From Halobacteriovorax marinus (lineage in GTDB: Bacteria; Bdellovibrionota; Bacteriovoracia; Bacteriovoracales; Bacteriovoracaceae): a DNA stretch of 64,000 nucleotides. Each line of letters starts with the position of its first letter. Position 1 is the stretch's first letter. The stretch is taken from contig MAAO01000015.1 of NCBI GenBank assembly GCA_002163155.1, forward strand, positions 62,001-126,000, given 5' to 3'. The notes under the pieces are model-generated. The model searched no databases and was not told the DNA's origin. It was given only the letters and a program-made list of their open reading frames with translations. The position numbers and the translations under genes were made by a program. Shown here one piece after another: positions 45,247 through 51,479 of this stretch.

Positions 45247-45428
45247 ATGAAACTCTCTCAATTTTAATTATGAAGTTTAATTCTAGAGAATATTTCTGAG
45301 CTTGTTTAGAGCTAAACGCCTTAAATCTTTAGTTTTTCAATGAAGAAAAATAGTAAAGTATTTTACTCAAGAAAAACCTCTAAGTAGCCGATAAGAGACT
45401 AAACAATTGTTTTTTTCTCGGAGAAACT

Positions 45429-48400
45429 ATTAAGTTACAATTTGTTAAAAGTATATTCCTCTTTATATTTATTTTGAGTGGTATGAGCTCTTTCGCTCAA
45501 AACTTCAATCAGAGTATATTTATCGATAAACCTATCGTGCTACCTCCTGTAGATATAAGTGATCTAGTGACTAAAAATGAAACTACTACCACTATAGAAA
45601 TCCCCCTCGTTGACGGCAATGGGAACCCAGTGACAATTATTCTTGAGGAAGCAGAAGATGGAACAACGACAATAACTGTTCCTGGAGAGGGATCAGTTGG
45701 TATTGTTCAAAATGGTGACACTACAACCATTTCGATACCTGGAAAAGGTGATATTAATATCATCAATAATGGAGACGATGGTGGTTTTGATTTTGAAATT
45801 TCACCAGAAGGGATTAATGGCGCAGACAATATTACTTGTAAAATAAAGGGCCAAAGTAAGAGTACCTGTGCCATCGAACCCTTTGTCACTGTTGTAGGAA
45901 ATAAAGTTCTAAGAGCTGACAAATTAGAAGTGGCCTATAGTGAAGGTGAAAATCTCAAAATTCTTGAAGGTACAGCGACTAACTTAACACTAGCAGATGA
46001 TGAAAATGTCACTGAGTTTGGCGGGTCTGAAACAGAGTTTGGCGACTCTGTTGTTGGTTTAAAAATGAATTCTAGTAGTAGCGATAGTAACTCCCTATTT
46101 CCCATTCCAACACCACAAGAATTTAAAGATAGTGATCGTCTAGAATTTAGTATCGATACAGATAGGATGGTTCATCGTATTCCAGACCCTAATAATCCTG
46201 GGAAGAAGCTCACCCAATTCGAAGTTAAAGATAGCAAAGGTATTCAAGCTCACTTAGTCATTGAAGAAGATCAAACTCTGGCATCTGTGAGTACAGAAAG
46301 TGGTCTGACTTACGATTCAGACCCAGCTAATGAGAACGCTGGAGTCACTGTCGATACCAACTCTCCCATTCATGCTCAATTTGCCCTAGATTCTTCAGAG
46401 GAAACTCCGCAAGCGAGTCTCTCCATCGTCATGAATGAAAATAACGCTAAAGGTGAACAATCTCAAATTGAAGTCATTGATAAAGACAGCTCAGATGGGA
46501 GCACCACTTTTAGTGCTAAGGGAAGAACGGGTATTAATATCCATCAAATGTTTAAACCCGAAAGAAATGGAGAAGTTCAAAAATTTGATACCAATCACCC
46601 TGCTTCCATAGAACTTTTTAGTGAAGAACTACAAGTGACTGAAATGGATGCGAAAGGGAATTTAAAATCTCAAACAAAAGTAGAAGGTTTTATCGCAACA
46701 GGAAAGACTGATCCAGAAAATGGCTCAACTAAATTAAGAATTCATACAGATAAAGTGACTGACAAGAGATATAAAGATGGAAAACTAAAATCAGAGACTG
46801 AAGTTTCTGGAAATGTTGCTCTTCTTTTAAGAGATACTCCCGAAAGAAGAGATGCAAAATTCCAAGCTGATTACGCCTACTACAGCAATGGAGATGTATC
46901 TGCTGAAGCCAGTAATGGAATCTTCTTTAGCGAGGATCGTTTTAAAGATTCTACAAACGCTCCCACAGTAAATGGAAAAAAGCTAAGAAGTGAGTTCAAT
47001 GCCAGTGGGAGCGAAGTGACATTTACCGACTCTAATAACGGTAATAGCGCAAATATGACTGGTGGATTTTCTCTTAATCAAAAGAGCTACTTCAATGGTG
47101 ATAAAGATTATTCCTTTGCTGGAAGTGGCGGACAATTTAGTAGCGATGATCACGTCGTTGATATAAATAGTCCTGTGGCCATAAATGTAAGGGAGACAAA
47201 AGCTACAAAGACTCAAGAAGTCGTTTTTCACGCTCAGGATATATCGGGGACAGATAAAAAATCGAATGATCAATTCACCCTTAAAAACTCACTCACTTAC
47301 TTTAGTAAGGATAGTAGCGCTGGAAAAGGTAAAGAGATTCTAAGTATTAATAGTCAAACTGATAAGCTTACCTACAAGAGTGGAGACGGCAATCGACTTG
47401 TTTCAATAAAGAATTTAAATCTAGCAGGAACAAAGAATGAGAAAATTCAATACGGTAGAGTTAGTTTTAGTGAAGGTCTCTTTCTAAGTGATATAAAAGA
47501 TTCCAGTAAATCAAAAAAAGATCCAACAGAAGAAGATTTCAAAAAGAAAGTAAAACTTCTTAACACTGAAGTTATCTTTCATATAGATGAATCTAATCCA
47601 GACCATAAAATTACTAGTGGTGTTCTCACGAGTGAACATATGAGTGCATCGAACCTTGACTACAGTGTTGATCTTGAGGTTTTAAACGATGGTGGAGCAC
47701 CTGAAAAGTTTAAAATCATTTACTACCAAGACGGTCCAGTCAAAACTTACAAGATATTTAATGAAAATGGTAAACGAGTCAAACTAAGTGCACTAGATAA
47801 AGATGGAAACACTTATGAAGTTCTTACTCAGTCGATTACCTACTTTGAAGATCCAAACTTTAAACAATTCATGGGTAAAGAGATAAGTGGCAGTGTAAAA
47901 ACTGTTGATGGAAATGATAATAAAGTACAAAGTTTCAGACTAGGTGAAGTCGCTGGCATTGAGAGTATTGATGGTAGTTTTAGGCAATTACACATAACAG
48001 AAGGCGAAGTTTCAGAGCAAAATATAAGTAAGGGATCTGAAATGCAGGCCTCATTCTCAAACCTAAACTACATCCAACAAGATAAAGTTCAAATGGGAAG
48101 TGTTCACTTTAAAGAAGTAAAATATCTAAGTGATGCCAATCCTGATTCCGGAAAATATGGGCAACAGATTAGACTCATTAATTCGGACATCGTATTTGCC
48201 ATTGATGAAACAGATCCAAATAAAGTAGTAAGAAATGGATCCCTCAGTGCAGAAAGTTTAAAGTTCAATGATCCAGAATATAGTGTTGATGTAAAGATTC
48301 AAGATGGAGAGGCAGGAAAGGATCGTTTCAAGCTCGTTTTCTTTGAAGAAGGTGAAACAAAGTACTACAAAGTCTTTCAAGAAGAGGATAACGGAAAGCT

Positions 48401-51400: not shown

Positions 51401-51479
51401 GTGTCAGCGCTACGTTAAAGAATTTAAAGAACTTTCACCCAGTCAACAAGCTCCAACTTGTCATATGAAAGTCAATTAA
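45429..51479 (+). CDS. Very large secreted repeat protein (2016 aa), ATT start proposed
   Basis: The frame is open from 45384 (after TAA at 45381). No ATG, GTG or TTG occurs before TTG at 45474, yet the codons at 45429-45474 spell a full signal peptide (KLQFVKSIFLFIFILSGMSSFA). An ATT at 45429 is placed five bases after GGAG, so ATT initiation is proposed. After the signal the protein is beta-strand rich with Asp/Ser/Gly-rich segments; three ~207-214-residue repeats lie at about 670-1290, then a 'NTYGLLLSGDSELEYQTNGDGVLKFFG' region near 1690-1720 and a helical C-terminus (1820-2016, 'KEFKELSPSQQAPTC'). No beta-barrel end or LPXTG is seen. Possibly a surface or periplasmic structural protein; family not recognised. 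Confidence 0.85.
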   Translation: MKLQFVKSIFLFIFILSGMSSFAQNFNQSIFIDKPIVLPPVDISDLVTKNETTTTIEIPLVDGNGNPVTIILEEAEDGTTTITVPGEGSVGIVQNGDTTTISIPGKGDINIINNGDDGGFDFEISPEGINGADNITCKIKGQSKSTCAIEPFVTVVGNKVLRADKLEVAYSEGENLKILEGTATNLTLADDENVTEFGGSETEFGDSVVGLKMNSSSSDSNSLFPIPTPQEFKDSDRLEFSIDTDRMVHRIPDPNNPGKKLTQFEVKDSKGIQAHLVIEEDQTLASVSTESGLTYDSDPANENAGVTVDTNSPIHAQFALDSSEETPQASLSIVMNENNAKGEQSQIEVIDKDSSDGSTTFSAKGRTGINIHQMFKPERNGEVQKFDTNHPASIELFSEELQVTEMDAKGNLKSQTKVEGFIATGKTDPENGSTKLRIHTDKVTDKRYKDGKLKSETEVSGNVALLLRDTPERRDAKFQADYAYYSNGDVSAEASNGIFFSEDRFKDSTNAPTVNGKKLRSEFNASGSEVTFTDSNNGNSANMTGGFSLNQKSYFNGDKDYSFAGSGGQFSSDDHVVDINSPVAINVRETKATKTQEVVFHAQDISGTDKKSNDQFTLKNSLTYFSKDSSAGKGKEILSINSQTDKLTYKSGDGNRLVSIKNLNLAGTKNEKIQYGRVSFSEGLFLSDIKDSSKSKKDPTEEDFKKKVKLLNTEVIFHIDESNPDHKITSGVLTSEHMSASNLDYSVDLEVLNDGGAPEKFKIIYYQDGPVKTYKIFNENGKRVKLSALDKDGNTYEVLTQSITYFEDPNFKQFMGKEISGSVKTVDGNDNKVQSFRLGEVAGIESIDGSFRQLHITEGEVSEQNISKGSEMQASFSNLNYIQQDKVQMGSVHFKEVKYLSDANPDSGKYGQQIRLINSDIVFAIDETDPNKVVRNGSLSAESLKFNDPEYSVDVKIQDGEAGKDRFKLVFFEEGETKYYKVFQEEDNGKLVEISASDLESNYSVLFKSIEYFQTDEYKLFLAKEVSGRIETIDGDSKVVQQFDLGDIQAFESSDGKQQSVSVTGGSVSQTDQTEGTYAQVNFSNFAYNKNDKLQAGSVHFEKVQYLSDISPKSGNAGKKLIILNSDIVFNSDESDSNNVIRNGLVVTENIQYADPEYSVDVKIKDGKAGEDRFKLMFYEEGNTKLYKILSENEDGKLVEISAKDKDDKQYTALFESIEYFQSDDYKQFLGKKVSGKLEQVDGKDKIVQQFSLDSIAAYEGKDFQGANISNLSLSQIDKNGTINANIADIEFQSQSNIKTGSYVDIQQLKAFDGKIDYQQIKNGSLKADAKFTFGSVMAQKLTQRDGKEITVFNAKDLSVVAISYDNDAKVSGGVGSVSYFDDERIQTVDIKDIQDLTYEDIKSGALAVVNGDRITRVVDRDENGKIKSSYLLIDNTVLNYSDKENEIEANIKVGVLEVLQDKLNDQNIILKADVEGVISTTKSVGGQLSFALKGEKLVYDSTSSTSEDGSRISNSFEIRALEGGRLDNLKLEAGPSFLKDFISIKAKGSKSGGKSLRFSFQQDKKQGTYYLRAEFKEGDMVKIKLYPFTLESKKEGKDAVAEILITPKGQNYMNHLEIISSVANMHEVTDWLSIGDESIGLRGAITKNTAIEVFYSKEDLWGVQRFSGFPDNSTTRKANSYGIGLVRKQESGAENTYGLLLSGDSELEYQTNGDGVLKFFGRDMDKDGSIPTTMNVYFKRKTAYGDTHLFNLGYSASRHFIDEEMINKDARFFQGGRGLGGGSLTYAFTTNPTENSKLTFSVGAYNNFSEPAAKICFQGKFDLNNLGRHAKKSGAVIRKLNEKLKREDEIRKENLSRVRLSIVRDQIEYLNSTYPGVVVAFKIQDKLNEIFLDPLSIPNDSNEIINHPKDLKRVFGLTEKEIKDYNYMLDHLSDARLKETFDEFEMTVDLADGNSSTSKKVGKVLDYHFKQVEQAKKTYHFTEVSDVMTKCQRYVKEFKELSPSQQAPTCHMKVN
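47439..49320 (+). repeat. Three long in-frame repeats inside the 2016-aa gene
   Basis: Units start near 47439, 48081 and 48702. Shared lines are 'GSVHF.[EK].[VQ]YLSD', 'N[ST]DIVF..[DE]E[ST]D', 'DPEYSVDVKI.DG.AG.[DE]RFKL.F[FY][ED]EG.TK.YK', 'KLVEIS', 'S[IY][ET]YF[EQ]' and '[KQ]QF.LG/LD'. Units 2 and 3 are close to 60% alike by eye; unit 1 is more diverged, giving a recent duplication of one domain. Confidence 0.8.

Follow-up and report, generated by a model that had tools for sequence, protein, structure and literature searches.

An ATT codon as the most likely start of a giant secreted protein gene in Halobacteriovorax marinus

A gene for a giant secreted protein in Halobacteriovorax marinus is most likely initiated at an ATT codon, located at position 45429 of the analysed DNA stretch of 64,000 nucleotides (the window). 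Judged from the sequence, we estimate the probability that this gene is translated from AUU, probably at a fraction of the rate of an AUG start, at roughly 75%. The codon follows a Shine-Dalgarno (SD)-like motif at a suitable distance and opens a complete signal peptide, no usable standard start is present, and ATT or ATC starts are in use elsewhere in the genome and the genus. The first-pass annotation had described a secreted protein of 2016 residues, and the frame from ATT indeed comprises 2016 codons with zero internal stops. The main coordinates are summarized in Table 1.

Table 1. Features of the start region of the giant gene and other genes with ATT, ATC or CTG starts in the same genome. 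Plain numbers are window positions; all others are given as contig and position.
Feature	Position	Strand	Start or site	Basis or remark
In-frame stop, upstream bound of the giant ORF	45381..45383	+	TAA	sequence
Weak hairpin, overlaps first half of the GGAG SD	45388..45421	+	CCGA...TCGG	folding, non-significant
Shine-Dalgarno-like motif	45420..45423	+	GGAG, spacer 45424-45428 (5 nt) to ATT	sequence, genome SD usage
Proposed start codon of the giant gene	45429..45431	+	ATT	geometry, signal peptide, orthologues, parallels
Signal peptide	45429..45497	+	IKLQFVKSIFLFIFILSGMSSFA, likely cleavage SFA/Q	sequence, orthologue alignment
First standard in-frame start	45474..45476	+	TTG	no SD; most of signal peptide lost
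Giant ORF, 2016 codons	45429..51479	+	stop 51477-51479	large secreted repetitive protein
Metallophosphatase-like lipoprotein	C6:46935		ATT after TAAGG	name by eye, no Pfam match
APH/SrkA-like kinase	C1:561828	-	ATT	
TetR regulator	C1:833062		ATC after CTAAGGA	ATC retained in G002 (two species)
HI0933-like flavoprotein	C1:876786		ATC or ATA	Pfam domain from residue 7
DTW-domain protein	C1:1024448	-	CTG	
Secreted 1122-aa protein	C12:135601-138966	-	ATC AAG TTT after AAGGA	
Secreted ~216-aa protein	C1:546946-547593	-	GGAGG, five bases, ATT	

The signal peptide and the absence of an alternative start carry more weight than the SD motif. Starting at ATT, a normal signal peptide followed by Q is encoded in full, as had been recognized before, and its peak hydropathy over 11 residues (2.75) is just below the 90th percentile of 1,782 genes (2.82). 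All codons from 45384 to 45471 were checked and none is ATG, GTG or TTG, which bears out the earlier statement that these are missing between the stop at 45381 and the TTG at 45474. The only standard starts nearby, this TTG and an ATG at 45483, are both located inside the signal peptide and are poorly placed. From neither of them is a normal signal peptide obtained, and the peak hydropathy drops to 1.27 in both cases, in agreement with the expected cost of a start at TTG.

The GGAG motif was likewise found five bases before the ATT, as described. For a simple start model, 785 kb and later 1.98 Mb of this genome served as training data (total of 4.55 Mb in 16 contigs, with a GC content of 35.7% in the first 785 kb). 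The genome uses SD sites, since GGAG is properly placed before 20% of the first ATGs, compared to 1.5% in a control stretch. The ATT reached an SD score of 5.35 (GGAG, spacing of 5), and this value was equalled or exceeded by 45% of the genome's chosen starts versus 5.5% of upstream non-start codons. As the stretch contains six near-cognate codons, an SD this good would arise by chance in approximately 29% of cases, so that the SD by itself argues only modestly for ATT. Taken together, the geometry favours ATT 45429 without proving it. The leader hairpin would pair the first bases of GGAG; at -9.6 kcal/mol (z of -1.64) it was matched in stability by 13 of 200 shuffles and is not significant at a strict level. 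Folding of the wider leader region was non-significant as well (z of -0.89), and the leader had no match in Rfam.

The giant gene stands alone between two opposite-strand genes, a NUDIX gene upstream and a CopZ zinc-domain gene downstream. Its protein gave no significant match in Pfam, NCBIfam or PDB sequences. By eye, three internal repeats of approximately 200 residues are visible in the ORF. Foldseek matches of residues 1240 to 1880 to outer-membrane barrels (LptD, TonB receptors) were discarded, because they carry no evidence at a mean pLDDT of 45 for the model of this segment. Relatives of the protein are patchily distributed: of the 128 other genomes of the family, five contain one (6 of 129 including its own). 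All four other genus genomes lack the gene according to the family search, and a contig scan found no close orthologue.

Since the genus mates are without the gene, the suggested check of orthologues for an ATG at the same place was restricted to distant ones with 18 to 27% overall identity in the alignment. In the three with complete 5' ends (G123, G095 and G086), an ATG heads the aligned signal peptide, and all distant orthologues share Q24, the residue that follows the cleavage site. It follows that the start lies at or near the ATT, and that ATT is not the rule in the family. As the distant orthologues use ATG, the ATT of the giant gene may be a recent change. Such a change could have been a start loss, i.e., a recent point mutation of an ancestral ATG that weakened or killed expression and left an incipient pseudogene. 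Besides the ATG of the distant orthologues, this would fit the complete absence of the gene from the genus mates, by which it looks dispensable. However, the frame of 2016 codons is intact, and ATT or ATC starts are tolerated at other loci of the genome, in two cases with conservation between species. We therefore regard a start loss as unlikely, although it is the best of the alternatives to initiation at ATT.

Sequence comparison clearly indicates further ATT and ATC starts in this genome. The parallel to infC that had been drawn earlier extends to this organism, as its own infC reads GGAGGTGATTT-ATT-AAA, and many relatives from the whole phylum also have ATT or ATC at this position of the gene. 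The named infC records nearest to it, at 82% or less, come mostly from Bacteriovoracaceae and Halobacteriovorax genomes, and many of these are metagenome assemblies. Screening of 1.98 Mb revealed seven further ATT, ATC or CTG starts besides infC and the giant gene. With 1,788 ORFs of 100 codons or more, these nine genes amount to approximately 0.5%. This figure was checked by hand, covers 43% of the genome and is a minimum, no census. The kinase has its ATT exactly at the ATG position of four genus mates (72 to 77% identity). The lipoprotein extends over 130 codons without a standard start, and its genus mates (48 to 55% identical) begin with ATG. For the flavoprotein, 23 codons are free of standard starts and the domain begins well before the first of them; the Pfam domain of the DTW protein also starts well upstream of the first standard start, and its genus mates have ATG. 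Clear conservation of the secreted 1122-aa protein in relatives is limited to its C-terminal third.

The secreted protein of approximately 216 residues was compared across five genus species. The block GGAGGCGCCTATT, which contains the SD and the ATT, does not differ between the five even at third codon positions, while the DNA for the signal peptide directly after it diverges. A promoter-like block upstream is invariant or nearly so. In this genome, the gene has no standard start for 59 codons. In two of the species (G003 and G004), an ATG lies in frame a few codons before the block, and the ATT reading is therefore most secure in the other three. These findings also bear on a sequencing or assembly error, by which the ATT at 45429 would in truth be an ATG. 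Such an error is conceivable, as one T/G exchange within AT-rich sequence would suffice, but similar starts recur in the assembly and one of them is identical in four other, separate genomes. Due to this recurrence, the case does not depend on one uniquely odd base, and we consider an error improbable.

An unbiased test was less conclusive than the individual genes. When the codons that follow a strong SD and precede the first standard start were counted, ATT occurred 7 times versus 3.8 expected (p of 0.09) and ATC 4 times versus 1.4 expected (p of 0.06). In this underpowered spectrum, ATT and ATC were marginal and not singled out, which does not prove an enrichment over chance, and hence the case for such starts rests on individual genes with orthologues. 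A reciprocal orthologue comparison against 400 kb of the genus mate G001 gave just 8 and 10 usable pairs and was uninformative. Within these 400 kb, likely non-standard starts with a strong SD were seen for three genes named by eye: ATT for a glycosyltransferase-like gene (C1:364551, +) and a small secreted protein (C1:173125, -), and ATA for a TadE-like protein (C1:181617, +).

Four candidates from the screen of the H. marinus genome were rejected, namely C1+233775 (frameshift), C1+718334 (good ATG downstream), C1+1392243 (gene fragment) and C1+791146 (ambiguous start position). At the first locus (C1 ~233735-233775, +), the frame of an N-terminal membrane segment meets a 414-codon ORF at a run of ten A's, which may reflect a frameshift, transcriptional slippage or a sequencing indel. 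The last one (C1:791146, +) is a 460-codon, secreted-looking ORF without a standard start, the 5' end of which overlaps a terminator-like hairpin of the upstream gene.

Two further readings place the start of the giant gene elsewhere. Translation from TTG 45474 or ATG 45483 would give a protein without a signal peptide. Although TTG is the first standard start, it has no SD and the ATG only a weak one (GAG), and either start would cost the protein its signal peptide, while the orthologues retain one; this reading is very unlikely. A start in another frame at ATG 45340, just upstream, followed by a frameshift into the ORF, is hardly credible, as this short frame of 15 codons ends at TAG 45385, 41 bases before the ATT, no SD or slippery site was seen by eye, and an N-terminus foreign to signal peptides would be added.

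Initiation at ATT 45429 hence remains the best reading. The GGAG would position the ribosome at the AUU, which would be read by the initiator fMet-tRNA, so that the first residue would be methionine. AUU pairs with the initiator tRNA with a third-position mismatch and is disfavoured by initiation factor IF3. Being poorly decoded in the P site and selected against by IF3, the codon would probably allow protein synthesis at only part of the rate reached with AUG. By analogy, it is plausible that the ATT throttles the giant gene and makes its expression dependent on initiation factors, as had been proposed. A low level of the giant protein is probable with regard to published reporters in other bacteria, and such a low output might be of adaptive value.

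The best-known precedent is infC, which encodes IF3, starts at ATT, ATC or ATA and is autoregulated. The giant gene shares with infC, including the copy in its own genome, the AUU, a purine-rich SD and the lack of a standard start nearby. However, infC carries a much longer SD (GGAGGTGA) and has a known reason for its start in feedback, whereas the SD of the giant gene comprises four bases and no feedback is known for it. In Staphylococcus aureus, non-canonical starts outside infC were described for cvfC1 (AUU) and ccpN (AUA), and the natural AUU of cvfC1 gave approximately 10% of the AUG reporter level in poor medium (PMC13009471). The giant gene resembles these two in having a non-canonical start outside infC, but it is known from sequence alone, whereas their starts were mapped by ribosome profiling, have an extended SD and are conserved. 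In Streptomyces, the GTC start of sigR is repressed through IF3 (PMC5472188). A rare start codon serves there as a regulatory handle, as it may in the giant gene, but codon and gene type differ, and the IF3 effect was demonstrated for sigR. In Listeria monocytogenes, translation of rsbW increased in the order ATT, ATA, ATG, and less than 0.3% of the core genome has non-canonical or flexible starts (PMC13068326). ATT thus lowers translation there as well, and such starts are fixed in a small share of the core genes; however, the rsbW changes were laboratory-selected, while the ATT of the giant gene is a natural wild sequence. In a reconstruction covering 36 genome triplets, one AUG-to-AUU switch was found among 61,358 AUG starts (PMC5622118).

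A non-standard start is a known but uncommon way to hold protein output low, and the giant gene would add another case. Most likely, it is one of several genes in this group with ATT, ATC or CTG starts, and the recurrence of such starts in the genus is a more useful result than the giant gene itself. Gene finders limited to ATG, GTG and TTG truncate such proteins, and the giant one would be called cytoplasmic. A small conserved set of ATT and ATC starts in the genus would provide a natural system in which to study how IF3 discriminates between start codons outside E. coli. As a tentative and rather doubtful extension, the AUU and AUC starts of the genus, that of the giant gene included, might form a conserved, deliberately weak class instead of scattered mutations, enriched in secreted or regulatory genes and responsive to IF3 levels, for example between growth states. 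The Bacteriovoracaceae are kin of the predatory Bdellovibrio. If these starts are regulated, translation-factor levels would be tied to the cell surface in a group related to predatory bacteria.
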